The notes beneath the pieces were generated by a model. That model ran no database searches, had not been told where the DNA came from, and was given only the letters and a program-made list of their open reading frames with translations. From contig JAFGGI010000052.1 in assembly GCA_016930635.1 (NCBI GenBank), positions 1-64,000 on the forward strand: a stretch of 64,000 bases of DNA, written 5' to 3'. A program made the translations under genes and the position numbers. This document shows positions 45,012 to 64,000 of this stretch, in pieces. Source of the stretch: Sedimentisphaerales bacterium. GTDB lineage: Bacteria > Planctomycetota > Phycisphaerae > Sedimentisphaerales > UBA12454. How positions within the stretch are numbered: the first letter of the stretch is position 1; every line of letters starts with the position of its first letter.

Positions 45012-46151
45012 CTATTTACCATTATTAATATGCAGGATTTTCGCACCTTCAAAGCCGTTGAATCTCGTCGCAGCGGCGATACTGTAGGCGCCAATATTTT
45101 CGGTATAAAGTAAATCACCAAGTTTTAGGTTGTTCGGCAGCTGCTCTGAAACCGAAATCTTATCGAAACTGTCGCAGGTGGGCCCGACAACAGCGCACAC
45201 TTCTATTTCACCTTCTCTGAATGCTCTAAAATTCGGGATCCAGTGGTCAAAGACAATGCCGGAGAACGTATGATAGACGCCATCGTTTATATGATAGAAG
45301 ATTTTGCCGTCCCGTCTTGCCTTGCCGATGATTTCCGAGATTAGCGATGCAGCGGTAGCAATCATAAACCTGCCGGGCTCTGCGATAACTTCCACATCTT
45401 CGGGGAACAGCCTTTTTATTTCGGAGTTTATTATCTTCGCCAGCTTCTCGAACCGGGGCACAGCAGAATCATAAGCCGCTGGAAATCCGCCGCCGATATC
45501 GATTATCTTAAGCTCATAGCCTTTTTTACGGGCCTCGTTGAAAATTTCCGATGTTATCTGCAAAGCGGCCGTGTAATTGTCGAAATTGGTACATTGGCTG
45601 CCGACATGGAAACTGAGACCCTCGACGGCCAGGCCGTTGTCGAATACTCTTTGTATCAGACTGGCTGCATCGGCAGGTTCTGCTCCGAATTTTGAGCTCA
45701 TTTCTATCTGCGAACCTATATCGGGAACTTTTAATCGCAAAACCAGTCCTGCGGTGCTGCAGTGTTCTTTTATCTTGTCCACCTCTTCTGCGTTATCGTA
45801 TGTAACGAGGGGTTTATATCTTTTGATTTTTCCCAAGGTTTGGCGGTCTTTGATGGTATTGGAGAAGATTATCTTGTCCCAGATGAAAAAGTCTTTTTCC
45901 GCCTTTTTAAACCCTTTTATCTGATTATAAATCTGAATAAATTCATTATACGAGGCAACGTCGAAGCTTGCGCCCTCGTTGAACAGCGTTTTTATTATTT
46001 CCTGATTGGAATTCGCCTTTACCGCGTAATAGGCCTGGACGTTGGGCAGGTTTTCCTTAAAGACGCGGTAGTTCTGACGCAATTTATCGTGGTCGATAAT
46101 AAATAAAGGCGTCCCGTGCTGCTCGGCCAATTTGATAAACTCTTCTTCCAT
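45012..46151 (-). CDS. Type III PLP-dependent decarboxylase (ornithine/lysine decarboxylase family)
   Basis: YYAVKANSN PLP-lysine motif; VEGLSFHVGSQ; IDIGGGFP; AEPGRF; VVGPTCDSFD. Confidence 0.88.
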   Translation of the reverse strand: MEEEFIKLAEQHGTPLFIIDHDKLRQNYRVFKENLPNVQAYYAVKANSNQEIIKTLFNEGASFDVASYNEFIQIYNQIKGFKKAEKDFFIWDKIIFSNTIKDRQTLGKIKRYKPLVTYDNAEEVDKIKEHCSTAGLVLRLKVPDIGSQIEMSSKFGAEPADAASLIQRVFDNGLAVEGLSFHVGSQCTNFDNYTAALQITSEIFNEARKKGYELKIIDIGGGFPAAYDSAVPRFEKLAKIINSEIKRLFPEDVEVIAEPGRFMIATAASLISEIIGKARRDGKIFYHINDGVYHTFSGIVFDHWIPNFRAFREGEIEVCAVVGPTCDSFDKISVSEQLPNNLKLGDLLYTENIGAYSIAAATRFNGFEGAKILHINNGK

Positions 46152-46174
46152 AATTATCTCTCAATCACTTAATT

Positions 46175-46603
46175 TTACTTGTTTACACGACAAATCTCAT
46201 TAAACGAAAAGATATCTTTCAGTTCATTCTTAGCTTGTTCTCCAAGATCAACACATACATCTTTACGATCATTCCAAACTTCATAAACCTTTGCAACCTG
46301 CCCCTGATACTCACCAATAAGAATATAAACGGTATCGTCCTTATAAAATGGGGCGCCATTTATCTTCGCTCGAAGAAGATAAAAACTATGAAGAGAAAAA
46401 TAGCTAATTGATACACCAACAACTGCTCCTGTAAGAACTGCCGATATCAATCCTCCCTTGGAAGTATAAAGGTACGTGGCAAAACCAGTCCCAATCAATA
46501 GCGGGCATATCCAAAAAGCAATACCCCACGGCCAGCGTTTTGCGAATAATATTTGTAATTTTGATGGCTTCATAGCCGCTATCCAATATACACACTCTAC
46601 CAC
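46175..46603 (-). CDS. Hypothetical membrane protein
   Basis: ORF with two hydrophobic segments; no recognised family. Confidence 0.55.
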   Translation of the reverse strand: MVECVYWIAAMKPSKLQILFAKRWPWGIAFWICPLLIGTGFATYLYTSKGGLISAVLTGAVVGVSISYFSLHSFYLLRAKINGAPFYKDDTVYILIGEYQGQVAKVYEVWNDRKDVCVDLGEQAKNELKDIFSFNEICRVNK

Positions 46604-46620
46604 ATTCTTTGCTTACATAT

Positions 46621-47799
46621 TTACAACTTTTTAATCAGGTCTGTGAGCATATCTATTTCATTATTATTTTCGAGGTATGATTCGATAAGTTTTTTTCTCA
46701 GTTCATCGCCTCGGTCGTAGAGTCTTTTGAACTTTTTTGGTTTTGTCGATTGTATCGTATAGGCAGTCAGTAAAGGGAACGCTGCGGTAACATCGAGATA
46801 GGCGGTTACGGTCTCATCGAGTTTTGTCGGGTCAATCTTGCCCCAGCTTGCCGCCTCTGATGGCGGAGCACCGGACAGGCCGCCGGTATCGGGCCGGGCA
46901 TCGGTGATGTTTATATCGTAATCCTGCCCCATTTCCGGAATCATCAGAATTTCCTGAATCTGCGGCTCGGTCTGGAGCATAAAATTCTTCGGGCTTCCGC
47001 CGCCGATAAGCAATACAGCTGTCTTGCCCTTTTCATATCTTTTAGCGTTCAGGACTATCGCTGTCGAGTCGTTTACATCGATGCTCGGATTTATCTTGAG
47101 TTTGAATTTATCCTGAAGGCCCTTTGCCTCGGCCAGAAGTTCAAGGCCTGTAATGTTCATACCGATAGTCGAATCGCCCGGCGAGGATGTAAAGACAGGA
47201 ATACCGTTTCTAAAAGCGGCGGCAAGGACGCTTACCTGGCCGAGGTTATGTTTCTTTTCAAGCTCATCGAGGATCTTGCCGAGGTGATGATAAAATTCGC
47301 GTGTGCCCATCTCCTTTTGGAACTCTGGCCGAGTAAGAATCTGTCTGAGCCTCCTGTCGGTCTCCATAAGCACATCTTCATAATCGAAAAGGATATCGTA
47401 AATCCGGGTTACGCCTTTGTCGCGCAGATCGGCATCATCGACATTATGACTGCCGCGGAACATCGGCAGGTTAAAGGCATAATGCAAATCGTGATACATA
47501 TTGGCCCCTGTCGCTGAGAGCCAATCGACAAAGCCGTGATTCATTAATGGGACAATCGTCGATGGCCCCAGCCCGGCCGGCGTCAGAGCACCCGCGATAC
47601 TCAGGCCTATGGTAACATCCTCTTTCGAATAGCTGTCGCGCATCAGATGACAGGCAGCGCGGAGACGGCCGCCGTTGTAGGCGTCCATATTGTCTATCAG
47701 CGCTACGATATCGGTGTCTTTATCAATAGGTTTGGGGAGGATTCGTTTTCCCGACAGGTATTTCGCCTTGCCGGGGCAGTTTTGCTTGTTATGTGCCAT
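46621..47799 (-). CDS. Deoxyhypusine-synthase-like (SpeY-like) protein
   Basis: GLSIAGALTPAGLGPSTIVPLMNHGFVDWLSATGANMYHDLHY; FTSSPGDSTIGMN; VLLIGGGSPKNFMLQ. Confidence 0.88.
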   Translation of the reverse strand: MAHNKQNCPGKAKYLSGKRILPKPIDKDTDIVALIDNMDAYNGGRLRAACHLMRDSYSKEDVTIGLSIAGALTPAGLGPSTIVPLMNHGFVDWLSATGANMYHDLHYAFNLPMFRGSHNVDDADLRDKGVTRIYDILFDYEDVLMETDRRLRQILTRPEFQKEMGTREFYHHLGKILDELEKKHNLGQVSVLAAAFRNGIPVFTSSPGDSTIGMNITGLELLAEAKGLQDKFKLKINPSIDVNDSTAIVLNAKRYEKGKTAVLLIGGGSPKNFMLQTEPQIQEILMIPEMGQDYDINITDARPDTGGLSGAPPSEAASWGKIDPTKLDETVTAYLDVTAAFPLLTAYTIQSTKPKKFKRLYDRGDELRKKLIESYLENNNEIDMLTDLIKKL

Positions 47800-47942: not shown

Positions 47943-49394
47943 TTATTTACGCCAGTTATTGCCCAGCACGGAAAATTCGTAGGCATTGACTATACAGTCG
48001 TCATCCAGATCCAGCCCGGCGGTCAGGCCGCAATCACTTTGGAGCCACAAATCAAGTAAATCGGGCAGGTCGTCTATCTCTACTATGCCATTACCTGTGA
48101 AGTCGCCGTAAAGACCGCCGAAGACTTCACTGGAATCGTCCGATTCGTTCGAATTCGTATCTACCGCTGTAACGACATAGTAATACATTGTATCGTGAGT
48201 GGTAATATCGTCGGTGTAATCCGAGTTGGTCAGAAGCGAACTGTTTAACTTGATATGGTTGGCATCTGCATCTGTCCAGCTATAAACATTATAGCCTGCC
48301 AAATCGGGTTCACTGTTGTCGTTCCAATCGAGAGGGACATTCGCTTCGCCGGGTGCTGTTACTGTCAGACCTGTCGGCGCTGCAGGCGGTGTCGTATCAC
48401 CACAGAATACATTACCGGCACAGGGCATTACGATATCTTTGACATCCGGCCCATCATCCATCGTATAAGGATAAGGCGGCACAAAGACGCTGTTATAGTC
48501 ATTAGGCGCCCAGGTAGAAACAGTTGTGCCGTTGACGAACTGATTGCCGGTAGGACCGGTGTTCCAGCCGATTATCCCCATAGGGTACGTTGGGTAATTG
48601 TTCCAGTTATACCAGGTCTGATTTACATTATCGAGATAGTTATTTTCGTATCGAATCTGGCATCCTACACCTACGCCAACACAATAGGTATTGGTGTGGC
48701 AGTCGTAGTAATTGTTATAAACATGAGCCAGACCGTAACGTACACGGGGCATTCTTTCCATACATTTGGTTGACCACCAGTTATGATGGAAGGTAACACG
48801 TAGATGGCCGATATCATCGGTGTTATCGTTGCTGTGTCCTACGAGACATGAATTGTTATGCCAAAGCTGATTGACATAGTAAAACTTGCACCACGAGACG
48901 GTAACAAAGTCGGATTCTTCGGTTATATCAAGGCATCCATCGCCGCAGTCGTAGAAGGTACAATGAGTTATAAAGATATTGCTTACATTTTCCTTTACGC
49001 TGATACCATCTGAGTGGTCCTCACCGACAGTGGGATTGGTAATAGTAAGATTTTTGATAATAACATTGGAAGCATATTGCTGAAAGGCCAGATTTCCTAT
49101 GATCTTCGAATTTGTATCTGTACCCATGACAGTCTTGTTCGAGGCGATATAAACTTTATAGCCGATGGGAGTAAGGTCGATAGTACCGGAGACCTGCACA
49201 ATATAAGTGTCCGGCGACGAGATATAATCGTTGAAGTCCCCAGGTGTGCTAACTGTAACAACAGTTCCGCCTGCCCCGCCCGTTGTACCTCCGTTCATAT
49301 CTGCCCAACCATCTGTAGTTACCGCGAAAGCACTTGATGTTAAATAGAATAACGAAATTACAATAAGACCTATGACTAAAAATGTTCTTTTCAT
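47943..49394 (-). CDS. Secreted PL1 pectate lyase with FN3 and dockerin-like modules
   Basis: DGWADMNGGTTGGAGGTVV; RMPRVRYGLAHVYNNYYD; YGDFTGNGIVEIDDLPDLLDLWL. Confidence 0.88.
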   Translation of the reverse strand: MKRTFLVIGLIVISLFYLTSSAFAVTTDGWADMNGGTTGGAGGTVVTVSTPGDFNDYISSPDTYIVQVSGTIDLTPIGYKVYIASNKTVMGTDTNSKIIGNLAFQQYASNVIIKNLTITNPTVGEDHSDGISVKENVSNIFITHCTFYDCGDGCLDITEESDFVTVSWCKFYYVNQLWHNNSCLVGHSNDNTDDIGHLRVTFHHNWWSTKCMERMPRVRYGLAHVYNNYYDCHTNTYCVGVGVGCQIRYENNYLDNVNQTWYNWNNYPTYPMGIIGWNTGPTGNQFVNGTTVSTWAPNDYNSVFVPPYPYTMDDGPDVKDIVMPCAGNVFCGDTTPPAAPTGLTVTAPGEANVPLDWNDNSEPDLAGYNVYSWTDADANHIKLNSSLLTNSDYTDDITTHDTMYYYVVTAVDTNSNESDDSSEVFGGLYGDFTGNGIVEIDDLPDLLDLWLQSDCGLTAGLDLDDDCIVNAYEFSVLGNNWRK

Positions 49395-49481: not shown

Positions 49482-52466
49482 TTACGGACAACTTGCAGTT
49501 ATCAGATTCGGGCCGGTAATTTCAATATAATCGATATTAGCAAGAGAGTTACTGGTTATACCTTCAAGCCTTATAGTCTTTACTCCGGCTGTTAAACTTA
49601 CACCAACAGAGACCGTTTCCCACGTGTCAAAATCGGCTGTCGGCGGGAAAGTGATACTCGATATGACTTCAGAGCCGTTGACAAGCAGTCTCGCGGACCT
49701 GTCATCTGTTTTGCCATGTGCATACCGCCAGGCAAAAGTATATGATCCGCCTGTAATTATCTCTACGCTCCAGTCAATGCCGGTACCTATGACATTGTCT
49801 GTATTGAAAAAACCATCACCGGTATATCCGGCATGGTCAGTGTCGATGCTTCCGTCCACATCGCAATAGCCTGCCTCATATTCCTGTATAAGAATATTAG
49901 TTACAGGAGCGGCGGGAGTGGCTGAAACCTGGGCCGAGTAGTCTGACTCATTGTCAGACATATCAACTGCGAGGACAACATAATAATATGTCACACCGTT
50001 GACAACCGTGTTATCGGTATAATCTGAACTGGTCAAAAGCGAGCTGTTTTGCTGGACATATCCGCTGCCGCTTGTCACGGAACGATATATATCGTAGCCG
50101 GCCAAATCGGCTTCGCCGTTGTCATCCCAGTCGAGCGAGACGGTTGCATCTCCAGCCGTTGCTGAAAGTCCCGTAGGTGCCCCAGGCGGAGTAGTATCGG
50201 GCTGAATTGCCCGCCAATTATTGGCAAATACTGATAATTCGTAGTTATCGACTACACAATCATCATTCAAATCAACACCATCTGTAGCGTTGCAATCATC
50301 TACCAGCCATAACTGGCAGAAGTAATCAAGGTCATAGACATCTACCACGCCATTAACTACAAAGTCGCCGTATATCTGAAGAGCCGCCGATACCTGAGTT
50401 GACTGCAGCGATTCATTAGAATAAATATCAACCGCTGTGACGACATAGAAGTATGCCGTATCGTAATCAACATCATTATCATCATAATATGGGTTAGCCA
50501 GCAGAGAGCTGTTCAATTTGACCTGGTTTGCATCTGAGTTCGTCCAGCGATATACATTGTAGCCTGCAAGGTCTGGTTCGCTGTTTTCATCCCAGTCGAG
50601 CTCTATCACTTCATAGCCTACTGTTGCCGTAAGACCTGTAGGTGCATCAGGCGCAGTTGTGTCAGGATTAGTAGTTGCTGATGCGGGACTTGACGGGCTG
50701 GTTTCATTATTAGCAGGACTGAGGTCGCGAGCTGTGACGGTGTAAGTATACATTGTGTCCGGCGTAAGACCGGTATCTGTATATATCCTGCTCGACTGCC
50801 AGCCGGAACTATTTCCGCCCCCTGCCGTGCAGATAAAGCGGTATTCAACACCATAAGCATCATCAGTCGCTACTGAGGCAATCATAGTAATAGTTGATGA
50901 ACTTGCCGCATAAGGCAAAGTTGAAAATGTCATCGGGTCCGGTGTTGGGGCTGTTGTATCAGCATCGGTTGTTGCAGAGGCCGCCCCTGATGCTGCGGTT
51001 TCGTTATGATTGCTGCTTGTATCACGGGCCGTTACGGTATAAGTGTACATCGTGCTCGGCGTCAGGCCTGTATCGGTATAGCTTGTACCTGACTGCCAAT
51101 TGGAACTATGTCCGCCTCCTGCCGTGCAGATAAAGCGGTATTCAACACCATTTTCAGTGTCGGTCGCGGTCGTAGCAACCATTGAAATAGATGTAGAACT
51201 TACCGCATAAGGCGGTGTTGCAAATGTCATCGGATCCGGAGTCGGAGGTGTCGTATCCGTGCTGGGCTCGGACCACTCAAACGCTCCAAGGTCGGGAGCA
51301 GAACCGTTATAAGGTTCACCTACGTCAATACCGGCATCTATTAATGAACTGGTTTCAACAAGTTTAAGGAAATCGAGGTCGGGCAAACTGCCGTCCGGCT
51401 GACGAGGGCCGTCAATACCGGTGGGGTCAAGACTTACAAAGTCGGAACTGCTGACTGAAAAACCAGAATTCCAGGAATTATACTGGTCATCAACCTCAGC
51501 ATAAAGATTTTCCCCGCCCACATATGAGATATTATTGCGCAATACCGAAGCTATATGTTCATCAAAGTAATAATTAGTTCCGCAATCATATACAGTGCAG
51601 TTGTAAACCTCAACTGGAAGCGTATCGCCGTTTATATCTATACCATTATGATACTGGTCATAAGCCATACAGCGAATCAAGACATGATTACCGGCACTCG
51701 ATCCTAATTTATAGCCGTTTCCGTCTCCGTTCCATGATGAATCGCCCCAGCGATTTACGCCGTTGCCCCAGGCCCAGCAGTCCTCAAACGTGATAGCGAT
51801 CTGGGTATAATATAAATCAAAGCCGTCATCGGCATTGTTCCACGCCCGACAGCCCCTGAATACGTTGCCCGGGCCGATATCTGACGATTTCGATGCGAAA
51901 CCATCCGCGTTTTCGCCATGATTTGGAGCGTCATAATTCAAATAGGAATCGCAGTTCAGTATCAGGTTGTAGGAAGCACCTGCGCCGCCAAACTGAATTC
52001 CGGAATCTCTATTCATTCGTGCAACAATTTGTTCTGCGATATTATAATTGCCGCCGAGATTCAAGCCGTTGTCGCCGGCATTTTGAATGATAAAACCCTT
52101 CAGGTGCCAATAATTGCCGGTCACGAGAATCCCCCTGCTGCTGGTGCCATAAGGCTGCGCGGTATAATCTAAGACAGGGACCTCGTCCTGATAAGCCTGT
52201 AATGTAATATAGTCTGACGATGTGCCGCTCGTTGCTATCGAAATAGTTGACGAATAGTCATGCTGGCCGCCGCGAAGATAAATTGTATCGCCCGCTACCG
52301 CTACACTTACAGCCTGAGTAATTGTCGCAAAAGGAGTGCCTATTGAACCGTCATTGCCGTCATCTCCGCCGGGATCGACATAATAGTTAGCAGCATATGC
52401 CGGGCAAGCTATAAAAATTACAAATACAATGAGAAAATACTTTACTGCTTTACTGCTTCTTTTCAT
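49482..52466 (-). CDS. Secreted PL9-like beta-helix pectate lyase with FN3-like domains, dockerin-like and CBM modules
   Basis: NYYVDPGGDDGNDGSIGTPFATITQAV; GDTIYLRGG; NADGFASKSSDIGPGNVFRGCRAWNNADDGFDLY. Confidence 0.85.
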   Translation of the reverse strand: MKRSSKAVKYFLIVFVIFIACPAYAANYYVDPGGDDGNDGSIGTPFATITQAVSVAVAGDTIYLRGGQHDYSSTISIATSGTSSDYITLQAYQDEVPVLDYTAQPYGTSSRGILVTGNYWHLKGFIIQNAGDNGLNLGGNYNIAEQIVARMNRDSGIQFGGAGASYNLILNCDSYLNYDAPNHGENADGFASKSSDIGPGNVFRGCRAWNNADDGFDLYYTQIAITFEDCWAWGNGVNRWGDSSWNGDGNGYKLGSSAGNHVLIRCMAYDQYHNGIDINGDTLPVEVYNCTVYDCGTNYYFDEHIASVLRNNISYVGGENLYAEVDDQYNSWNSGFSVSSSDFVSLDPTGIDGPRQPDGSLPDLDFLKLVETSSLIDAGIDVGEPYNGSAPDLGAFEWSEPSTDTTPPTPDPMTFATPPYAVSSTSISMVATTATDTENGVEYRFICTAGGGHSSNWQSGTSYTDTGLTPSTMYTYTVTARDTSSNHNETAASGAASATTDADTTAPTPDPMTFSTLPYAASSSTITMIASVATDDAYGVEYRFICTAGGGNSSGWQSSRIYTDTGLTPDTMYTYTVTARDLSPANNETSPSSPASATTNPDTTAPDAPTGLTATVGYEVIELDWDENSEPDLAGYNVYRWTNSDANQVKLNSSLLANPYYDDNDVDYDTAYFYVVTAVDIYSNESLQSTQVSAALQIYGDFVVNGVVDVYDLDYFCQLWLVDDCNATDGVDLNDDCVVDNYELSVFANNWRAIQPDTTPPGAPTGLSATAGDATVSLDWDDNGEADLAGYDIYRSVTSGSGYVQQNSSLLTSSDYTDNTVVNGVTYYYVVLAVDMSDNESDYSAQVSATPAAPVTNILIQEYEAGYCDVDGSIDTDHAGYTGDGFFNTDNVIGTGIDWSVEIITGGSYTFAWRYAHGKTDDRSARLLVNGSEVISSITFPPTADFDTWETVSVGVSLTAGVKTIRLEGITSNSLANIDYIEITGPNLITASCP

Positions 52467-52505: not shown

Positions 52506-53903
52506 TTATTGCATCCAGTTATCCGCTACTACGGCGAGGTCCATAAAGTTCACTGTATCATCATCATAAAAATCGGCGCCGCCGCAGGTACCGCAATTAT
52601 CATCCAGCCAGTTATCTGCAAGACATTTTAAATCAGCCAAATCTACTCTGCCGTCCGGCTGGCAATCACCGTCTATATATTCAAACGCTCCCAGGTCAGG
52701 TGCATCATAATGATATGGCAGGCCGACATCAGTTCCCCCATCAATTAAATCGCTTGTACCCACAAGCCGCATAAAAGAAATGTTAGGCAAACTGCCGTCA
52801 GCATTTCGCGGGCCGTAAGCTGCAGATGGGTCGATGCTTGCAAAATCTGCACTTGTCACAACAAAGGGACTCTGCCAGCTATTCGTCGTTTGTGTAGCAT
52901 AAGCAAGACTCACTGAGCCTGAAAAACTGACACAATTGGTAACTATTGCCGTCTTACCGCTGGCCATTGCTTCTGAGATTTCAAAATTGTTGCTGCCATT
53001 GCTGAACGCTGTGCAATTGTATAGAGTCATAGAACCTTTATTGTGATTTTGGTCAAATCCTTCCTTCAGATTGGAAAATGACAAGCAGTTTTTCAGAATA
53101 ACATTATGTCTCAACAATCGCGGTGTATCGCTTCCGCCCATCTTAAATCCATTCCCGTTGCCGCTACAAGGGCTTCCATCTTTGAGATAACCAGCCTTCA
53201 TAGCCCAGCAGTTCTCATAAGTGGTGGTTATATCATCCGATGGTCTCAAATATCCATCATAATCATCATCTGAGTTGTTCCACGCCCGACAGCCATAGAA
53301 ATAATTGCCTGTGCCGACATCTATCTTGGGCGCAAAACCATCCGCATTGCCTTGAGTATAATCGCAATTATAATAGGAATCGCAATTTATGATTTGATTG
53401 TATGCTGCCCCGCCGGCAACCCCCACGCCGGTATTCCTGTTTTCGTATGAGCTGCAAAATTCGACAATATTATAGGTTCCGGTAACTCTTATTCCGTTAT
53501 GCGGTGCACCTTTGCAGTCTATTCCTTTGACATACCAATAACTGCCTGTGATTAACAAACCTTCGGCAGATGTGCCTGTCATCGCTGAGAAATCCAGCAG
53601 AGGCCGTTCACCATTATAGCCCATTAAATAACATCTATTGCTTTCACTTGCCCCGCTTTTAGCAGGAAGAGTAACCGGTGTGGTTGAGCCTGTATATGTA
53701 AACGTTCCTGCCCGCACATAAATAGTATCACCAGCGCCTGCCGCCGTTACTGCTTTGGGAATCGTTTGCCAGGGATTGCCTATGGAACCGTCGCCGGTGG
53801 TATCATTGCCGTTCGGGTCGACAAAATAATCATCTGCATATGCCGGACAAATCGAAAAAAGTATCAGCAGAATGAAAGAATACCATTTTATTTTTTTATC
53901 CAC
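52506..53903 (-). CDS. Secreted PL9-like beta-helix pectate lyase with dockerin-like C-terminus
   Basis: DDYFVDPNGNDTTGDGSIGNPWQTIPKAV; NADGFAPKIDVGTGNYFYGCRAWNNSDDDYDGY; C-terminal EF-hand pair. Confidence 0.85.
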   Translation of the reverse strand: MDKKIKWYSFILLILFSICPAYADDYFVDPNGNDTTGDGSIGNPWQTIPKAVTAAGAGDTIYVRAGTFTYTGSTTPVTLPAKSGASESNRCYLMGYNGERPLLDFSAMTGTSAEGLLITGSYWYVKGIDCKGAPHNGIRVTGTYNIVEFCSSYENRNTGVGVAGGAAYNQIINCDSYYNCDYTQGNADGFAPKIDVGTGNYFYGCRAWNNSDDDYDGYLRPSDDITTTYENCWAMKAGYLKDGSPCSGNGNGFKMGGSDTPRLLRHNVILKNCLSFSNLKEGFDQNHNKGSMTLYNCTAFSNGSNNFEISEAMASGKTAIVTNCVSFSGSVSLAYATQTTNSWQSPFVVTSADFASIDPSAAYGPRNADGSLPNISFMRLVGTSDLIDGGTDVGLPYHYDAPDLGAFEYIDGDCQPDGRVDLADLKCLADNWLDDNCGTCGGADFYDDDTVNFMDLAVVADNWMQ

Positions 53904-53936: not shown

Positions 53937-55409
53937 TTACTGCATCCAGTTATCCGCCAGGATGCTATAATCGATAAAATCTACATTATTATCATCGTTC
54001 AAATCGGCCCCGCTGCAATAGCCGCAGCCGGTATCGAGCCAGTTATCGAGAAGACAGGCCAAATCGGCCCAGTCAATATCGCCGTCAGGCTCACAATCGC
54101 CAACTAATTCTGCACGTTCAAATGCTCCCAGTTCGGGCCCGCTTCCAACAAAAGGCTCGCCTACGTCAGTCCCTGCATTTATCATTGAACTGCCGTCGGC
54201 TAAACGGAGAAACCCAAGTTTTGGCAATTCGCCGTTCGGTCCTCTCGGACCGTCGATACCAGTGTGATCAAGGCTTACAAAATCGGAGCTGCTGACTGAA
54301 AAACCGTTCCAGGAATTATATGTGTCATCAATCAATGAACCGATATTTACCGAACCTGTATATGAAATATTATTGCGCAACACATGAATCGCACCGGTAG
54401 TCGGATTAAGGAAAGTAAAATTGCTGCTGCTGTTATTATAGGCGGTACAATTATAAAGAGTAACACCTGTCGCATCTGTTGTAGAGCGGTTCAGGTCAAA
54501 CCCTTTTGCCGGGAGGTCAAAAGCAATACAGCGAATCAGGACGTGTTCGCCGCCGCCCTGCCCGAGTTTAAAGCCGTTGCCATCACCATTGAACGGCGAA
54601 ACAGACCAGATATTTATGCCGTTACTCCAGGTCCAGCAATCCTCGGCTAAAACGCCGCTGCCTGCATACCAGAAATCCCAGCCGTCATCAGAATTACTCC
54701 ATGCCCGACAGCCGCGGAATACATTGCCCGGCCCGATATCACGTTCGTCAGGGGCCGGAGTAGGACCTTTCGCCGCAAAGCCGTCGGCATTTTCACCATT
54801 TTTATACGGGTCATAATTAAGATAAGAATCACAGTTTATTATCTGGTTGTAAGAAGGATAGGTACCGGAACTTGCGTATATTTGAATGCCGGAATCTCCG
54901 TTTTCATATACAACTATCTGTTCAAGTATATGGTATGAGCCATCAATAAATATCGCGTTATCTGCCGAACGCCGAATGGTAAAACCCTTAAAGTGCCAGT
55001 AATCTCCATGTAATTCAATTCCCCTGTAGTTGCTTACCCTTTGTTGGTCCGAGAAATCGATAATGGCATTTTCATCCTGATAATTCTGCAGAGTTATTCT
55101 GTTTGACGATGAGCCGCTTGTCGTAATCGAGATAGTTGATGAATAGTCATGCTGGCCTCCGCGGAGATAAATAGTATCGCCCGCTACCGCTATTGATACT
55201 GCCTTGGGAATCGTCTGCCAGGGATTACCTATGGAGCCGTCGCCGGTGGTATCATTGCCGTTGGGGTCAACAAAATAATCATCTGCAACTGCCGGACAAA
55301 GAGCCAAAAGCAGACAAAGAATTAATGCCAGTACAAAAAGATTGCGCCATTGGTCTAAAACTTGTAAAATCGACGTCCGTATCAACGATTGATGTATCTT
55401 CAAAACCAA
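53937..55409 (-). CDS. Secreted PL9-like beta-helix pectate lyase with dockerin-like C-terminus
   Basis: DDYFVDPNGNDTTGDGSIGNPWQTIPKAV; GDTIYLRGGQHDYSS; GNVFRGCRAWSNSDDGWDFW; start codon uncertain. Confidence 0.85.
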   Translation of the reverse strand: MVLKIHQSLIRTSILQVLDQWRNLFVLALILCLLLALCPAVADDYFVDPNGNDTTGDGSIGNPWQTIPKAVSIAVAGDTIYLRGGQHDYSSTISITTSGSSSNRITLQNYQDENAIIDFSDQQRVSNYRGIELHGDYWHFKGFTIRRSADNAIFIDGSYHILEQIVVYENGDSGIQIYASSGTYPSYNQIINCDSYLNYDPYKNGENADGFAAKGPTPAPDERDIGPGNVFRGCRAWSNSDDGWDFWYAGSGVLAEDCWTWSNGINIWSVSPFNGDGNGFKLGQGGGEHVLIRCIAFDLPAKGFDLNRSTTDATGVTLYNCTAYNNSSSNFTFLNPTTGAIHVLRNNISYTGSVNIGSLIDDTYNSWNGFSVSSSDFVSLDHTGIDGPRGPNGELPKLGFLRLADGSSMINAGTDVGEPFVGSGPELGAFERAELVGDCEPDGDIDWADLACLLDNWLDTGCGYCSGADLNDDNNVDFIDYSILADNWMQ

Positions 55410-55583
55410 ATATCACCTGTCAGGCTCAGTATGAATGGCTAGAGCTTTATTATACCAAAAATAGAGCGTTAAAACAACTAAAATTACCTATTTTTACTTA
55501 CTCGTAACTTATTTTACGGCAAGTAATTACATCTCGCTATGCAGCGTCTAAACTTACCCAGCCTACCTTGAAAATCAAATTGT

Positions 55584-55652
55584 ATTATACCAGTATAGAC
55601 GAGCCGGATGATAGTGCGTTTTGCGCAAATTAATTACATAATTGCGCAAGTC
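55584..55652 (-). promoter_or_regulatory. Operator/promoter element copy D (toward PL9 gene 53937..55409)
   Basis: Minus strand: cttgcgcaattatgtaattaatttgcgcaaaacgcactatcat...tactggtataat. Confidence 0.75.
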
Positions 55653-55664
55653 ATTTTTCCAGAA

Positions 55665-56864
55665 TTAGATAACGCTGTGTGTCTTTCTGAAAGCGTTGGG
55701 CGGAAGCCCTTTGTGTTTCTTGAATACCCTTATTAGATGACTGACCGAATCAAAAGTCGAGGCCCTGGCGATCTGGTCTATGGACAAATCAGATTCAAGA
55801 AGAAGAGAAGCAATGTGTTCGACACGCACACGTATCACCTCTTTCAAAATGGAACGGCCGAGAAATTTTTGGAATTTGCTCTCCAAAGACCTCCTTGAAC
55901 ATGCCGCCGAATCGACAATATCTGCAACCTGGATATGCGAATTGAAATTCTTCCGTATAAAATTAACTGCACTTGCAACATTTTTGTCTTCTATAGCCAT
56001 TATATCGGAAGACTGCCTGACAACAACATGGGTAGCAGGAGCAAGAATTGCCTGGCTTGCCATTTTTTCCTCGCCAATAATAATACTATTTAATAAATGA
56101 GCCGCTCTGTATCCTGCTAATTCAAGATTTATGGAAACGCTCGAAAGAAGCGGTTTAGCAGCATTACAGAGCACATCGTCATTAAAGACCCCTACTACGG
56201 CAACTTCCTCAGGAATATGTATGCCGGCCTCCTCCGCAGCCTCTAAAAGGTCATATCCGATAGTATCATCGCAAACCATCAGACCTGCCGGCTTCGGCAG
56301 AGAATGCAGCCATTCGACAGGTTCCTTAAGTCCTTTCATCCACGTTCGTCCTGACTGCCAGTCGTACTGGTCACGTTTTTTCGCTTTAACCGAGGGCTTA
56401 TAAACACTGGTCGTATAGCCGGCCTGACGAACTGACTGGCTGAATCCTTCCATTCTCCAATTCGACCAGAAATAACTGCTGGCGCTGTAATAAGCAAAAT
56501 GCCTGAATCCTCTTTCAAGAAAATGTTCAGCGGCAAGTTTTCCCGCCTGGAATGAATCGGCCGTCAGATATGGAAAAACATCCGGTATCTGGAGGCAGTC
56601 CATGCCTATACAGGGCAGTTTCATCTCGGTAACATCAGATACGATTTTCTTCGAATGCATCGCAACGAACATACCGTCGATACCTGTCTTTTTCAGTGAA
56701 GGCAGAACACGGCTCGGCACCCCGCCGGCAATACGAAGATGCCAGTTGGTATTGCCCTTTGTATAACGGCATACTCCCCTTAAAATATGCCTCAAATTGA
56801 GGCTTATGCCAGGTACAACAAAGGCAACTTTAATATCACTTTTTTGTTTATTGCGTCTTGGCAT
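55665..56864 (-). CDS. XylR-like AraC-family transcriptional regulator with PBP1-like sensor domain (second copy)
   Basis: VAFVVPGISLNLRHILRGVCRYTKG; VCDDTIGYDLLEAAEEAGIHIPEEVAVVGVFND; AraC HTH VADIVDSAACSRRSLESKFQKFLGRSILKEVIRVR. Confidence 0.88.
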   Translation of the reverse strand: MPRRNKQKSDIKVAFVVPGISLNLRHILRGVCRYTKGNTNWHLRIAGGVPSRVLPSLKKTGIDGMFVAMHSKKIVSDVTEMKLPCIGMDCLQIPDVFPYLTADSFQAGKLAAEHFLERGFRHFAYYSASSYFWSNWRMEGFSQSVRQAGYTTSVYKPSVKAKKRDQYDWQSGRTWMKGLKEPVEWLHSLPKPAGLMVCDDTIGYDLLEAAEEAGIHIPEEVAVVGVFNDDVLCNAAKPLLSSVSINLELAGYRAAHLLNSIIIGEEKMASQAILAPATHVVVRQSSDIMAIEDKNVASAVNFIRKNFNSHIQVADIVDSAACSRRSLESKFQKFLGRSILKEVIRVRVEHIASLLLESDLSIDQIARASTFDSVSHLIRVFKKHKGLPPNAFRKTHSVI

Positions 56865-56914
56865 ATTAAAATAATAACCAAATAAGGGGAAAATATCAAG
56901 TACTTCGAAAAAAA

Positions 56915-56984
56915 TATTGCGTAATTATGCAATTTTATTGCGCAAAACGCACTATTATACACTGTATTATATATGTAATAATAG
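56915..56984 (+). promoter_or_regulatory. Operator/promoter element copy A (toward SGNH esterase)
   Basis: attgcgtaattatgcaattttattgcgcaaaacgcactattatacactgtattatatatgtaataatag. Confidence 0.8.
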
Positions 56985-57073
56985 GATAGTAGCTTTTGTA
57001 TTCAGGAGCAGATTTGGGGATCGGCCTCAAATTACAGAGTCGTTAAATTCACTAAAATAAGGATTCATAGCTT

Positions 57074-59116
57074 ATGTTTAATTTCTTTACAAGTAGATCA
57101 AAGAGTACCGGCAGAACAATAATGATGATTAAGTCCCGGCGTTTTATTTTATTATTAGCCCTTTGGCAAACTATTATTTTTACGGCTGGCGTCAGTTCTG
57201 TTCTGGCAAATAATGAGGACGCTAACGTATCTGACAATACTTCCAATATTGCTATAGAACTAAATACTTCAGCTCTTACTTTTGCCAGGCCCGACTTATC
57301 CCAACAACTGACAGCAATAGTAACAGGAACTTCTATAACAGATGTAACGTGGACTTGCGCAGATGAATATATCGCTTCAGTCAGTTCGGATGGAACAGTC
57401 ACCTCTGTCGCAGGAGGCACAGTTGCAATTACCGCAACATCAACAGTTGACAGCTCAAAATCTGCCGTCTGTATGGTTACTGTAAATGAGCCGAATCGTG
57501 CAGAAACAACAGATGTTACAGCACCTGATACAATATCGGGTAGTAATATAGAAATCATTATGTGCGGCGACTCTCTCATGCGGACTTATTCAACCAGCTA
57601 TGGCGCCGACCAGTGCGGCTGGGGGCAGATGCTGCAGGATTTTTTCGACAACAATGTTACTGTAAATAATACCATTTCCGAGGGAGGACGAAGCACCAGA
57701 AGTTTTTATAATGAGAATGTCCGCTGGCCGGCAGTCAAGAGCATTCTGGCAGCAAACAAATCAGCCGGCAAACCCTCATTTGTCTTTTTCCAGTTTGGTC
57801 ATAACGACCAAAAACTGGCCACCGGCAATGGGCATGAATATCTCACATTTGCCATGGCCAATCAAAACGGTACTGTTGCAGGTACCTATTATGATTATCT
57901 GGAGCGTTATATTGTGGAGACAAGACAACTGGGCGGAATTCCTGTCTTTTTTACACCATTTGTCCGCAGATACTACAGCAATGGTGAAGTAACTGAGAAG
58001 GGAAAACATAATCTCCTTGAAGTATACTCCGGCGAATCAAAATGCCGCGGAAATTATCCTGCAGCTATGAAGGCTGTTGCGGCAAAACACAGTGTGCCGG
58101 TTATTGACATCACTGGCTGGAGTGAAGAATTGATTGAAGATCTTTACGCCAGTGAGGGAGAAGACAGTGCTGCTGATTTTATTTACAGCTCCGACAATAC
58201 CCATACCCGGACGCTGGGAGCTATCAAGCACGCTGAAGCGGCTGCCCAGGGATTATACGACCGGGGCATCCTCGACCAATATATTATTAAACCTGACCCA
58301 AGACTGATGCTGGATGCCGGCAAAAAGGCATTCGGTAATCTCGTTATAGGCAAAGTAAATCCGTTGAAGAATTATAAAAATTTTAAAATGACAAACTATA
58401 AGGTAACGGATGGAACACTGACCATTTCGTCGGATTCGCCATACTTTACTATAAGTGACAACAAGGACGGCACATACAGCAATGAGTTGACTATTGACTG
58501 CTCTTTAACAGGCAAAACGGTTTATATCAAATTTGTTCCCGATGCCGCCATCGATTATACAGCAACACTGAGAGCAACTTATAGCGGAACAAAAACCATT
58601 ATTCCCGACTTCGGGACATCAACTCCCGGGACTATCGACGGCACAAGTGCCTGTATCGCTCTTTCCGGAACCGGCATAGAATATATCCCCTATACCGGCA
58701 GTAAGTATATTTTAAATGTGGGCGATTTGGAGCCGGAGACTTTACAAGACGGTTTAACTCTTGGAACAGCAGATTATTATACTATTAATGGAACTCCCGT
58801 AGCACAGGTAAATAAAAAGACCGTAAACGGTGTGACCTATACCAAGAGATTAAAGACTGCAAATCCGTCTAACAGTATTTCCTTTACAACATCAAACAAA
58901 GCTTCTGTTTATACAGTCTGTATCAGCTCGAGCAGCAGCGCTATCAGGATACTGAATGTATTCGACAGATTAAACAATATCCTGGAGACATTTGAAATTC
59001 CCGGTCATTCTGCTATCGGCATTACTTTTACTGTCCCGGCGGCAGGAACTTATACACTGGCATCGGCATTCGGCGGAATCAATTTTTATTATTTTGAGGT
59101 TAATGAAAATGAGTAG
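57074..59116 (+). CDS. Secreted SGNH hydrolase, rhamnogalacturonan-acetylesterase-like (CE12-like), with Big2-like N-terminal domain
   Basis: CGDSLMRTY, NNTISEGGRSTRSF, FFQFGHNDQK, DNTHTRTLGA; Big2-like VTWTCADEYIASVSSDGTVTSVAGGTVAITA. Met at 57122 is an alternative start. Confidence 0.82.
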   Translation: MFNFFTSRSKSTGRTIMMIKSRRFILLLALWQTIIFTAGVSSVLANNEDANVSDNTSNIAIELNTSALTFARPDLSQQLTAIVTGTSITDVTWTCADEYIASVSSDGTVTSVAGGTVAITATSTVDSSKSAVCMVTVNEPNRAETTDVTAPDTISGSNIEIIMCGDSLMRTYSTSYGADQCGWGQMLQDFFDNNVTVNNTISEGGRSTRSFYNENVRWPAVKSILAANKSAGKPSFVFFQFGHNDQKLATGNGHEYLTFAMANQNGTVAGTYYDYLERYIVETRQLGGIPVFFTPFVRRYYSNGEVTEKGKHNLLEVYSGESKCRGNYPAAMKAVAAKHSVPVIDITGWSEELIEDLYASEGEDSAADFIYSSDNTHTRTLGAIKHAEAAAQGLYDRGILDQYIIKPDPRLMLDAGKKAFGNLVIGKVNPLKNYKNFKMTNYKVTDGTLTISSDSPYFTISDNKDGTYSNELTIDCSLTGKTVYIKFVPDAAIDYTATLRATYSGTKTIIPDFGTSTPGTIDGTSACIALSGTGIEYIPYTGSKYILNVGDLEPETLQDGLTLGTADYYTINGTPVAQVNKKTVNGVTYTKRLKTANPSNSISFTTSNKASVYTVCISSSSSAIRILNVFDRLNNILETFEIPGHSAIGITFTVPAAGTYTLASAFGGINFYYFEVNENE

Positions 59117-59158
59117 AGATGTAATTTCAGGAGCAATATCAAGAGTTTTAAAAAATCT

Positions 59159-59228
59159 ATTGCGTAATTATACAATTTTATTGCGCAAAACGCACTATTA
59201 TAAAATCCCGCTGTTATGCAATAATAAC
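59159..59228 (+). promoter_or_regulatory. Operator/promoter element copy B (toward pectin methylesterase)
   Basis: attgcgtaattatacaattttattgcgcaaaacgcactattataaaatcccgctgttatgcaataataac. Confidence 0.8.
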
Positions 59229-59293
59229 AGCAATAACGATGTTCATATTCAACTATTTGGGGCAGTTCAAGGTGAGAAAGGAAAAGTGAGATT

Positions 59294-62062
59294 ATGTTCA
59301 GGAAATTAACAAGCCGAAGTATTTATTGCATTTTAGCAGTTATCATTTTTGGTTTGGGGCAAAATTCAACTGTCCGGGCAGCCGACATGATGATTACCAA
59401 TCTTTTTCCCGATAACAACGATGTAAATGTATGTGCAGATACGAAGCTGTGGATAACATTCGACGCGGCACCGATAATGTCAACAGACAGTAATATGCAT
59501 CTGCAGATATGCCAAGTCTCGGACGATTCGGTAGTTTATCAGCTCGATCTGCAGGAGCTGCCTACTAATTATTACGGGCCGATTGGGACAGGATGGCCTT
59601 ATAAAATTTCCTTGCCCGAAGTAACGTTAAACTACCAACCTTTTGATGTAGTCGGTAATGTATTGGAGATATACCCATCAACATCTCTGGATTACAACAC
59701 CGAATACTATGTAAAGATGACAGCCGGTTTCTGCAGTGATGCCAACGGCAACACCTGTCCCGATATCAATGACAATACAACCTGGCGATTTACAACCAAA
59801 CCGGCCGCACCTGCAGCAGACCATGACTATACAGTTGCACTTGATGGAAGCGGAGATTTCTGCACAATGCAGGGTGCTGTTGACGCTGTAGCTAATTATG
59901 ACTCGACTAGGACACTAATAAGGATCAAAAACGGTAATTACAGAGGTGTGGTCTACATACCATCATACAAGCTCAATATAACCTGGCTCGGCCAAGACAG
60001 GGATGAAACTGTTGTATACGCCTATAACCGCGAGATCTTCAATCCGGGAAGTGATGCGCGTATGGTGGTTAGAAGCTATCCAGATGGATTCAGGATGTAT
60101 AACCTGACACTTCATAATACAGCGCCGGATAACTCGGGGCAGGCGGAAACGATAAAGCATTCAAATATTTACAGCATTGTGGAAAATTGTAAATTCAAGA
60201 GTTATCAGGATACGCTCTGTCTTAACGGGCATATGTATATGAAGGACTGTTATATCGAAGGAGATACGGATTATATCTGGGGATATGGAACTGTATACTT
60301 TGATCAGTGCGAATTGAGATATTTAAGTTCAGGGTCACATTTAACACAACCGAGAACAGCAAACGGCGCCAAAGGATTTTTCTTTGTAGATTGCGTTATG
60401 ACCGCATCGGGTGGAGTGGCAAACTGTGATTTCGGACGACTGTTTAATGGTTACGGTTATGCACAGGTTGTGCTGATAGACTGTATTATGCCAAGTTCTC
60501 TAATTGTTCCTGTAGGCTGGCTCCAAAATACCTTGACGGACCTGAGCAACGTAAGACTATGGGAGTATAAGTCAAGAGACCCGTCCGGCAGTCTTATCGA
60601 TGTAAGCGGCAGGTTAGAAGCTTCTGTACAACTGTCCGACGCCGAGGCAATAACGTGGAGAGATGTAAACAATGTTTTCAATTCGTGGAATCCCAAGGTA
60701 CCTGCTGAGGCTCCCTCATGTTCATGGCAGCCTCAGCCGGCAGACGGTGCCACAGATATAATATCGGCAGAATTAGCCTGGGCAGCAGGTGCAGGAGTTA
60801 CATCTCATATGGTATATTTCGGCGAGACTAATCCGCCGGCATTCGTGGAGGAAATAACAGAATTATCCTATGTTGTGACACAGATTATGGATGCGAATAC
60901 AACTTATTACTGGAGAATCGATGAAAAGAATTCGGCCGGTACAACAACAGGAGATGTATGGAGTTTTACTACTTCGTCAATATTAGACACAACACCACCG
61001 AGCCCGAATCCGCTTGTCTGGGCGATCGAGCCCAATTCAACCAGTACTGACACTATTACAATGACTGCAACAACGGCAACTGATGAATCCGGCGTTGAAT
61101 ACTACTTTACAAATGTAACAGATTCTAATCACGATTCAGGCTGGCAAAACAGTGAAGAATATACTGATACCGGTCTGGACAATGACACAACCTATACCTA
61201 TAAGGTCAAAGCACGAGATAAAAGTATTCGTCATAATGCTACCGCAGATTCCAATGAAGCATCAGCTGCAACTTTAAGATATATCTGCGGTGAACCACTC
61301 ATTCCGGACCTGGATGGAGACTGCCAAGTTCACTGGGATGATTACATAATTTTCGCTGACGGCTGGATGGTTTCAAGAGTAAAAACAGAAGATATAAACA
61401 ATGGTACATTCGATACTGAGCTTGACCCATGGGCACTTGTCGATGCTGAAGGCGTTCAGGGTACGATGACAGTAACATTTGACGGCTCTTACGGCCAGCC
61501 TGCAGGCTCAGCTCTTATACAGGCTGATACGACCGGAACCGCAGTTAATCATCATCGTTTCTATCAGGTAATACCTGTAATCGTCGGCGACAGATATAAG
61601 TTTTCAGGCCAATGGAGCGGAGCTTTATATGATCCGAATTCTACCACACGACGCAACTGGGCTGAAGTTTTTGTAGGATTCAGTCCCGACGATACCCCAT
61701 CGGAATGGGGCACTATAATGTATAAGAAACGGTTTATCTCCGTCGGCAGCAGCAGCAACGTAAACTTCGATCCTAACTCCGACGGCACCTGGGAATGGGA
61801 AGAGATCACAGATTCTCCAGAGGCAGGTCCGGCCGATGGGCTTTTCGTAGCCAGTCAGCCATATATGGTTGTATCCTTTAATCTCGGCGGTAATTCTAAT
61901 GGCGGAGCAAGCTATATTAATATAGACAACATCAGCATTGCTGAATGTCCGATGACAGCAGATCTCAACGGAGACTGCGAACTGGATATGGCAGACCTTG
62001 AAGAAGTAGCTGAACAATGGATGGTGTGCAACAGAACTCCTATAGAGGAATGTTGGCAATAA
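59294..62062 (+). CDS. Secreted CE8 pectin methylesterase with Big5-like N-terminus, FN3-like domains and C-terminal CBM/dockerin-like cassette
   Basis: YTVALDGSGDFCTMQGAVDAV; KFKSYQDTLCL; CYIEGDTDYIWGYGTVYFDQCEL; C-terminal DLNGDCELDMADLEEVAEQW. Confidence 0.87.
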   Translation: MFRKLTSRSIYCILAVIIFGLGQNSTVRAADMMITNLFPDNNDVNVCADTKLWITFDAAPIMSTDSNMHLQICQVSDDSVVYQLDLQELPTNYYGPIGTGWPYKISLPEVTLNYQPFDVVGNVLEIYPSTSLDYNTEYYVKMTAGFCSDANGNTCPDINDNTTWRFTTKPAAPAADHDYTVALDGSGDFCTMQGAVDAVANYDSTRTLIRIKNGNYRGVVYIPSYKLNITWLGQDRDETVVYAYNREIFNPGSDARMVVRSYPDGFRMYNLTLHNTAPDNSGQAETIKHSNIYSIVENCKFKSYQDTLCLNGHMYMKDCYIEGDTDYIWGYGTVYFDQCELRYLSSGSHLTQPRTANGAKGFFFVDCVMTASGGVANCDFGRLFNGYGYAQVVLIDCIMPSSLIVPVGWLQNTLTDLSNVRLWEYKSRDPSGSLIDVSGRLEASVQLSDAEAITWRDVNNVFNSWNPKVPAEAPSCSWQPQPADGATDIISAELAWAAGAGVTSHMVYFGETNPPAFVEEITELSYVVTQIMDANTTYYWRIDEKNSAGTTTGDVWSFTTSSILDTTPPSPNPLVWAIEPNSTSTDTITMTATTATDESGVEYYFTNVTDSNHDSGWQNSEEYTDTGLDNDTTYTYKVKARDKSIRHNATADSNEASAATLRYICGEPLIPDLDGDCQVHWDDYIIFADGWMVSRVKTEDINNGTFDTELDPWALVDAEGVQGTMTVTFDGSYGQPAGSALIQADTTGTAVNHHRFYQVIPVIVGDRYKFSGQWSGALYDPNSTTRRNWAEVFVGFSPDDTPSEWGTIMYKKRFISVGSSSNVNFDPNSDGTWEWEEITDSPEAGPADGLFVASQPYMVVSFNLGGNSNGGASYINIDNISIAECPMTADLNGDCELDMADLEEVAEQWMVCNRTPIEECWQ

Positions 62063-62100
62063 ATAACTACCCACTACGAACCGGTCATCCGGTGAGGGAA

Positions 62101-62130
62101 AAAGGCAGGCTTACGGACCTGCCTTTTTCT
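62101..62130 (+). terminator. Rho-independent terminator aaaggcaggc-ttacgga-cctgcctttttct
   Basis: Strong stem followed by a T-tract after the CE8 gene. Confidence 0.85.
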
Positions 62131-62176
62131 ATATTTGTTTTGTAATATCAGAATAATTATTTGTTTTTAACAAATC

Positions 62177-62246
62177 ATTACGCAATTATGTGATTTTTTT
62201 GCGCAAAACACGCTATTACAACATTCCGTTATTATGTAATAATAGC
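62177..62246 (+). promoter_or_regulatory. Operator/promoter element copy C (toward SSS transporter)
   Basis: attacgcaattatgtgatttttttgcgcaaaacacgctattacaacattccgttattatgtaataatag. Confidence 0.8.
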
Positions 62247-62329
62247 GTCTGCCTTTTCCTATATTTGTTTTAAAAAATTATTGGGTTCGTTATAATAGCC
62301 CACCTGACAGATTGAAAGGAGTCGCTCTT

Positions 62330-64000
62330 ATGTTCGGACTTGCCATAGCAGATATTATCGTCATCGTTATTTATTTCACAGTTGTAATCGGCATCGGTTA
62401 TTGGGCTTCAAGGCGTATCAAGAATCAGGAGGATTACTTCCTGGCAGGCAGACGGTTCGGCAAGCTGGTACAGACCTTCGCAGCGTTCGGCCAGGCAACC
62501 AGTGCCGACAATGCCGTAGGCGTAACCACGACAACATTTAATAACGGCATCGCAGGTATCTGGAGCTCACTACTTTATTTATTCGCAACACCGCTTTACT
62601 GGGTGGCGACACACTGGCCGAGGCGTATGCGAATATTGACACTGGGGGATTACTTTAAAGAACGATATCACTCCACGAGTATGGGAGCGGTTTATTCTGT
62701 TATCGGTTCCATCGGTATGATGGCATTTATCGCTCTCGGATTCAGCGCAATGACAAAGACTATTATCGCGATGACGCCAAAGGCAGCCTCCATATACAGC
62801 CAGGGCGAACAGGCAGAATACAACAAAGCTTACGAAATCGAAAAACTCACGGCAGAATCTCAAGGCAGGACATTCGGTGTATTAAGTTACAGCGAGCTGA
62901 TTGAACGTCAGGAGCTTCAAACTAAAGAGCAGCGAAGCGAAACAGAAAGTACTCGCCTGGTATATCTGGATTCAATGCGGCCGGCGGCGGCATTTTCACA
63001 TATCTCCAAGGAATCACTCATATGGATCGTTTGTATTGTCGTGCTTATCTATGCCGTACTGGGCGGCCTGGAAGCAGCATTCATATCCGATATGATACAG
63101 GGGATGTTTATTATTCTTCTCTCTATTATTCTGATTCCATTCGGATGGAGCAAAATAAACAGCATCCACGGCGGCAGTGGCATAATCGGCGCAATGAGTA
63201 CCGTTCATCAAAAACTGCCGGAGACCTTTTTTCAAATCTTCGGCGCACCGCATACACCAGATTTTACATGGTATTATATCATCACACTGTCATTTATGGC
63301 TACTATAACTGTTATGGTTCAGCCAAACGGCACTGTCCTGGCAGGCTCCGCAAAAGATGAGCTGTCCAACCGCACTGGTGTGGTAATCGGCAATTTTATA
63401 AAACGTTTTTGCACAGTTTTCTGGGCAATCTTCGGTTTAGCTGCTATTGTGCTCTACAGCGGAAAAGTCATACACTCAGATTTAGTATGGGGTTATGCAA
63501 CACTTGACCTGCTTGGCCCGCTTAAAATCGGACTGGTCGGTCTGATGATTGCCTGTCTTATGGCAGCACTGATGTCCACAGCAGATTGTCTGATGATTAC
63601 CTGCTCAAGCCTGCTGACACATAACCTTTATGCCCCGCTGCTGCCAGGCAAAAGCCAGAATCACTATATCTGGGCAGGAAGATTCTTCGGAGCAGCAGTA
63701 TTACTACTCAGCACATGGATCGCGCTGCAGTTTGATACTATCCTGCAGATCCTCAAGTTTATCTGGGAACTTAACGTAATGCTCGCACCTGCTTATTGGC
63801 TCGGTATTAAATGGCGGCGTGCAAACAAAATCGGGGCGTGGACTTCAATTAGTATCGGTGCATTACTGTTTTTGATAATTCCTGTCCTGCTGCCGATGGT
63901 TGTTCCAGATATGCGATATAACGATAACCTGCTGCGTATGACCAATCCTAAGCCTTGCAGTCAGATAGAACGTGCATCTGAATATGATGTTGATAAACGA
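62330..64000 (+). CDS. Sodium:solute symporter (SSS family), C-terminus truncated by window end
   Basis: Not in ORF track. Translates without stop from ATG 62330: MFGLAIADIIVIVIYFTVVIGIGYWASRRIKNQEDYFLAGRRFGKLVQTFAAFGQATSADNAVG...; upstream RBS attgaaaggag. Confidence 0.88.
   Translation, partial: MFGLAIADIIVIVIYFTVVIGIGYWASRRIKNQEDYFLAGRRFGKLVQTFAAFGQATSADNAVGVTTTTFNNGIAGIWSSLLYLFATPLYWVATHWPRRMRILTLGDYFKERYHSTSMGAVYSVIGSIGMMAFIALGFSAMTKTIIAMTPKAASIYSQGEQAEYNKAYEIEKLTAESQGRTFGVLSYSELIERQELQTKEQRSETESTRLVYLDSMRPAAAFSHISKESLIWIVCIVVLIYAVLGGLEAAFISDMIQGMFIILLSIILIPFGWSKINSIHGGSGIIGAMSTVHQKLPETFFQIFGAPHTPDFTWYYIITLSFMATITVMVQPNGTVLAGSAKDELSNRTGVVIGNFIKRFCTVFWAIFGLAAIVLYSGKVIHSDLVWGYATLDLLGPLKIGLVGLMIACLMAALMSTADCLMITCSSLLTHNLYAPLLPGKSQNHYIWAGRFFGAAVLLLSTWIALQFDTILQILKFIWELNVMLAPAYWLGIKWRRANKIGAWTSISIGALLFLIIPVLLPMVVPDMRYNDNLLRMTNPKPCSQIERASEYDVDKR

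Follow-up and report, generated by a model that had tools for sequence, protein, structure and literature searches.

A four-copy tandem element and its probable XylR-type activator in a pectin gene island of a Sedimentisphaerales bacterium

Four copies of one promoter element (sites A to D, Table 1) face the genes of a pectin island in a Sedimentisphaerales bacterium, and the XylR-type protein encoded within the island is very probably their binder. There is good reason to regard A to D as two-half-site operators through which this protein would activate the pectin genes in class II fashion. The window, that is the whole stretch of DNA analysed, comprised the initial 64 kb of a contig of 79 kb in a 2.45-Mb assembly with 96% completeness. 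The island covers approximately 48–64 kb of the window and consists of minus-strand lyases, a minus-strand regulator and, on the plus strand, an esterase, a CE8 gene and a symporter. Adjoining it at 45012-47799 (-), a deoxyhypusine-synthase-like gene (PF01916) lies beside an ornithine/arginine-decarboxylase-like gene.

Table 1. Positions in the window of the element copies, the proposed regulator and the pectin-related genes
Feature	Position	Strand	Details
Site A	56916-56957	+	half-site 1 56916-56936, half-site 2 56937-56957
Extended -10 of A	56974-56982	+	TGT AATAAT
Site B	59159-59200	+	half-site 1 59159-59179, half-site 2 59180-59200
Extended -10 of B	59217-59225	+	TGC AATAAT
Site C	62177-62218	+	half-site 1 62177-62197, half-site 2 62198-62218; most diverged of A-D
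Extended -10 of C	62235-62243	+	TGT AATAAT
Site D	55609-55650	-	half-site 1 55650-55630, half-site 2 55629-55609
Extended -10 of D	55584-55592	-	TGG TATAAT
XylR-type regulator gene, proposed binder	55665-56864	-	LacI/GalR-type sensor and AraC-type double HTH
PL9-type lyase gene opening the probable D operon	53937-55409	-	PF22842, E 9e-19; start codon uncertain
Second PL9-type gene, 33 bp after the first	52506-53903	-	PF22842, E 6e-20
Third PL9-type gene (also CBM6/35, fn3), 39 bp after the second	49482-52466	-	PF22842, E 9e-22
PL1-type pectate lyase gene, 87 bp after the third PL9-type gene, possibly last in the operon	47943-49394	-	PF00544, E 3e-26
SGNH/GDSL esterase gene with CBM77 (pectin-binding module), putative target of A	57074-59116	+	PF13472, E 5e-10; PF18283, E 1e-5
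CE8 pectin methylesterase gene, putative target of B	59294-62062	+	PF01095, E 1.5e-30
SSS-family symporter gene, putative target of C	62312-64000	+	PF00474, E 2e-24; runs past the window end, full ORF in L043

A preliminary description of the DNA had claimed four copies in front of pectin genes, each with a -10 hexamer at a fixed place and variable bases in between. All four copies were present and oriented into the genes, and in each the distance from the start of TTGCGC to that of the hexamer was 39 nt. Every -10 was also preceded by TGn (4/4 sites), forming an extended -10 that was absent from that description. The mean pairwise identity among A to D was 0.79 in half-site 1, 0.90 in half-site 2 and 0.85 in the TGn/-10 block. 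It was 0.36 in the 16-nt spacer and approximately 0.3 both upstream and downstream of the element, so that conservation is confined to the element. Since identity was found only in the half-sites and the -10, at fixed spacing, these pieces must be under selection, and the copies are more than duplicated DNA.

Mismatches to the consensus of the preliminary description numbered 0 in A, 1 in B, 1 in D and 4 in C, and a scan of the window at ≤3 mismatches consequently missed C. None of 100 dinucleotide-shuffled versions of the 64-kb window contained even one match to the core consensus. The genome-wide motif scan that had been suggested as a check returned four sites, all at pectin genes: the 20-mer TTGCGCAAAACGCACTATYA with ≤3 mismatches occurred in exactly four places of the assembly (A to D), its reversed control gave 0 matches, and no further close copy was found. 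Within the window, CGYAA-N16-CGYAA occurred at sites A to D only. The genome-wide scans were pattern searches plus one profile, and weak sites may be missed at this completeness.

By its sequence, the core of the element consists of a tandem pair of 21-nt half-sites, which read approximately ATTGCGYAATTATGYAATTTT and WTTGCGCAAAACGCACTATTA and whose strongly conserved common part is CGYAA, with the two boxes 21 bp apart. The 42-bp core had previously been described as two tandem dyads; a 21-bp tandem direct repeat fits better. The palindrome TTGCGCAA was perfect in A to D (4/4 pairs). In half-site 2 of the diverged copies (site E, the G010 element and the two G008 copies G008a and G008b, described below), only 1–2/4 of its pairs were present and CGYAA was kept; one box of site E reads CGTGA where the other diverged copies keep CGYAA. 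The dyad model was rejected, as the palindrome breaks in the diverged copies while the CGYAA boxes and their spacing largely persist. A palindromic operator of the LacI type, with an inverted repeat retained in diverged copies, was thus not what we found. The imperfect 18-bp dyad in half-site 1 kept 4–8/9 pairs across the copies, and local dyad symmetry there may still carry meaning. The likeness between half-sites 1 and 2 over 21 nt was 0.42 vs 0.28 in permuted sequences (p = 0.026), a modest value that would fit a degenerate second box in each half-site.

The -35 position falls within half-site 2, and the extended -10 follows at a fixed distance. In E. coli, AraC acts at araI1-I2 on two half-sites in direct repeat with a spacing of 21 bp; the proximal one overlaps -35, and activation is of class II. 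The element has the same two direct half-sites approximately 21 bp apart, the proximal one at -35 and at a fixed distance to the -10, a layout that points to an activator site of the ara/xyl type. The sensor differs: a cupin-type arabinose domain in AraC, a LacI/GalR-type domain here. The regulator combines both XylR-type domains in one protein, the sensor (PF13377 at residues 112-286, E 5e-33) followed by the AraC-type domain (PF12833/PF00165 at 318-394; PF12833 E 1.5e-18).

For binding, dimer geometry, activation and induction we infer the following scheme. A dimer of the regulator would place its two AraC-type domains head-to-tail on the half-sites, 21 bp or two helical turns apart. Of the two HTHs in each DNA-binding domain, one would contact a CGYAA box and its partner the less conserved second box. 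At the promoter-proximal half-site (-35), the bound regulator would recruit RNA polymerase to a promoter that otherwise has an extended -10 only. On sensing a sugar derived from pectin through its LacI/GalR-type domain, the regulator would become active and turn on four targets: the operon of PL9 and PL1 lyases behind D, the acetylesterase behind A, the methylesterase behind B and the transporter behind C. Autoregulation of the regulator gene is likely because site A lies in its own upstream region.

The same regulator might instead act on the same sites mainly as a repressor, with half-site 2 covering -35 until the inducer releases it, or with an AraC-like alternation of repression and activation. 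We consider this improbable. A LacI/GalR-type sensor would fit LacI-like logic, an extended -10 can work without a -35, so that an activator is perhaps unneeded, and site A is located in the regulator's own upstream region. However, characterised relatives with the same domain pair activate (PMC12125979, PMC7567609), and no -35-like hexamer is conserved. Furthermore, the distance from half-site to -10 is equal at all four sites and mostly agrees within a few nt in unrelated XylR-like loci, which speaks against repression because repression would need no such spacing.

The preliminary description had placed a PL9 gene, the esterase, the methylesterase and uptake under one regulator. This is supported by the genome scan, by co-occurrence and by the gene order in G010 (below), except that site D faces a probable four-lyase operon and not a single PL9 gene. 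From the short gaps of 33, 39 and 87 bp, D probably drives a PL9-PL9-PL9-PL1 operon, in which the PL9 genes are Pel9A-like. Between D and the first PL9 gene, the leader of that gene (55440-55465, -) contains another extended -10-like sequence, TTTTTGGTATAAT, together with a CGTAAAA box; these are possibly a second promoter. The SGNH/GDSL esterase had a weak PaeY pectin acetylesterase match, below the cut-off. Three GH28 genes follow the transporter past the window end, and a scan of locus L043 found no element at them.

Elsewhere in the genome, a candidate site E (G000:C9:32801-32861, -) has 3 mismatches to the degenerate element pattern and a TATAAT in register. It lies upstream of a DUF1559 gene that is followed by a second CE8 gene (PF01095, E 2e-65). 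Its profile E-value of 0.007 (model R1), taken by itself, falls short of significance: with this model, genomes lacking a close orthologue of the regulator gave best E-values of 0.005-0.4, and most weak R1 matches were dismissed as chance since such genomes score alike. Site E remains a candidate on account of the CE8 operon that it precedes and its TATAAT in register, and the regulon may extend to this distal operon.

Of 162 genomes from the order, three encode a close orthologue of the regulator (≥58% identity): G000, the window's own (100%), G010 (70%) and G008 (58%); the next best protein was approximately 43% identical. The degenerate element pattern matched in the same 3/162 genomes only, and its reversed control gave 0 matches in the 162. 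The three genomes belong to one family and are not phylogenetically independent. In G010 the element is located between the regulator and the CE8 orthologue; the proteins there are 59-70% identical (CE8 59%), and the -10 is out of exact register. In G008 one copy lies divergently beside the regulator, ahead of a gene for a secreted protein without a Pfam match, and a second copy on C144 precedes another secreted protein of similar look, also without a Pfam match. The G008 elements thus face no recognisable pectin gene, which counts against the proposed scheme. Co-occurrence and the conserved regulator-element-CE8 order in G010 both support the regulator as the candidate binder, as had been proposed. 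In named genomes, the regulator had distant relatives only, two of them in Sedimentisphaerales MAGs.

In the genome G005, all that is left of a regulator 76% identical to this one is a 55-residue C-terminal piece (C12:6037-6201, locus L042), which adjoins a PL9-like gene, and a lone half-element (C73:218, L044) precedes a gene for a secreted protein; the two are a possible relic of a lost regulon. With the 20-mer alone, other genomes of the family gave scattered matches with 2-3 mismatches at about the control frequency, which are uninformative except possibly the one at G005:C73.

It is very unlikely that another protein is the main binder of A to D, such as the second XylR-like protein (8197-9390) or a LacI-type reader of the perfect palindrome that all four sites carry. 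The genome does encode further AraC-type proteins. Yet that palindrome is lost from diverged copies, and the element tracks the orthologues of the island's regulator across the 162 genomes. In the 8197-9390 protein both HTH1 (KRSLQLKF) and HTH2 differ from those of the island's regulator, and no CGYAA pair was found near its gene; its operator is probably of a type other than that of A to D.

Weak profile matches in G008 on C153, C195, C220, C1 and C171 were rejected as regulon sites and proved to be a dispersed intergenic repeat (C153:38331, C195:4795, C220:421, C1:3968 and C171:4765; loci L093-L096 and L098). The repeat begins TTGCGCAATTRTGCAATTTnnTGACGCA and continues with units like AAGTGCRAAAA of approximately 10–11 bp. 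It possibly represents decoy sites or a repeat that captured an operator. That A to D are themselves just a repeat scattered through the genome, or promoter DNA copied recently and without a regulatory role, is scarcely credible: the G008 repeat does open with half-site 1 plus the initial box of half-site 2 and lies near unrelated genes, but it lacks ACTATT and the -10, the window's genome has no extra close copies, and all four sites face genes of one pathway with half-sites and -10 alike and near-random spacers. Upstream of the CE8 orthologue of G008 (56% identical), there was an ATGG-type CGYAA element (C193:9638-9698, L162) and not the element of this clade, which suggests that another XylR-type regulator controls CE8 in that genome.

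The 21-bp spacing recurred around 46 XylR-like loci sampled family-wide, with regulators approximately 31-43% identical and orthologues excluded. In a lag test that used no motif, lag 21 was the single top direct-repeat lag, both upstream (z 5.5-6.6) and downstream (z 4.8-5.2) of the genes. Lags 20 and 22 were near background in these flanks, and the peak was absent from the coding DNA of the 46 loci. Some other multiples of three were mildly raised, a codon effect that does not explain lag 21. Pairs of CGYAA boxes at spacing 21 numbered 8, in 7 of the 46 loci, compared with 0-2 at each other spacing from 14 to 34, an excess with a Poisson probability of approximately 1e-6 for a box that was learned from the window. 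In 6/8 pairs, a TATAAT match of ≥5/6 followed 33-37 nt after the second box; the distance in the window is 36. The same lag test was tried on E. coli xylA-xylF, where lag 21 was the best of lags 15-27 but the top window was not tied to a mapped XylR site; the result was not used as evidence.

A pattern of two CGYAA boxes and TATAAT matched 46 times in the 162 genomes vs 17 times in the reversed control. Nine of these 17 came from G160 alone, where they are probably a repeat family, and other genomes gave 0-1. Many of the matches read CGCAAAATG(G/A) at one or both boxes. By eye, several preceded secreted, sulfatase-like, dehydrogenase-like or transporter-like genes, and some of the genes that followed start with a prepilin-type signal, like the DUF1559 gene after site E.

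The two HTHs of the regulators may relate to the two boxes. CGYAA pairs occurred in 7/27 loci whose regulator has RRxLExxF in HTH1 and in 0/19 without it (p = 0.017, for a contrast drawn post hoc). The HTH2 helix HLIR[VA]F was found in this regulator's clade and in 0/46 of the other XylR-like proteins, and the second box reads GCACTATT in this clade vs ATGG in others (HTH2 such as HI[AS]RYF). These observations led us to hypothesize a code in which the box read by HTH1 is constant and that read by HTH2 varies. An order-wide operator grammar, for and against which the case is about balanced, would then consist of a near-invariant CGYAA box, presumably under HTH1, occurring twice at a distance of 21 bp, and a -10 approximately 36 nt past the second copy; the box under HTH2 would be specific to each regulator.

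E. coli XylR (PDB 4fe4, 4fe7) has the same domain pair, and 4fe4 matched residues 25-397 of the regulator (phmmer, E 1e-38). Two XylR sites are present at each of xylA and xylF, both of which XylR activates (PMC7567609), comparable to the two half-sites per target promoter here. By eye, the two proteins share approximately 20-25% identity, which makes a different inducer probable, and five candidate sites stand against two operons. Strictly, a regulator of the E. coli XylR type would go with xylose isomerase, kinase and transport genes; the four sites face pectin-related genes, and the protein should not be called a xylose regulator.

XylRA of Vibrio, with the same domain pair, binds direct repeats in electrophoretic mobility shift assays (EMSA) and activates (PMC12125979). 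Its regulon likewise joins a LacI-type sensor and an AraC-type domain to several adjacent polysaccharide genes and a motif of two direct repeats. It differs in its substrate (xylan/xylose), its affiliation (Gammaproteobacteria) and its AT-rich motif; binding and inducer were measured in Vibrio. AraC-type hybrid regulators of Bacteroides use direct repeats averaging 21 bp, including those of two pectin regulons (PMC3878776). Like the regulator described here, HTCS_Rgu-1 and HTCS_Rgu-2 have an AraC-type domain and ~21-bp direct repeats; they also place pectin lyases, esterases and uptake under one regulator, as proposed here. Unlike it, they are membrane sensor kinase hybrids accompanied by SusC/D, in place of a one-component LacI-type sensor and an SSS symporter. 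The pectin switch thus appears to belong to the known AraC-style sugar switches, from which it differs in substrate, phylum and probably inducer.

Sedimentisphaerales have among the richest polysaccharide-degrading gene sets of their phylum (PMC11131199). In the literature searched, coverage of which was incomplete, we found no regulon or operator for the order. A defined operator and a named regulator make pectin control in Sedimentisphaerales directly testable. The operator layout recurs across an order whose gene regulation is largely unstudied, and with the 21-bp CGYAA grammar found at unrelated XylR-like loci, many other sugar regulons of hardly culturable bacteria could be predicted. If the order-wide grammar is true, sequence alone could suffice to assign regulons to dozens of polysaccharide regulators that are as yet uncharacterised.
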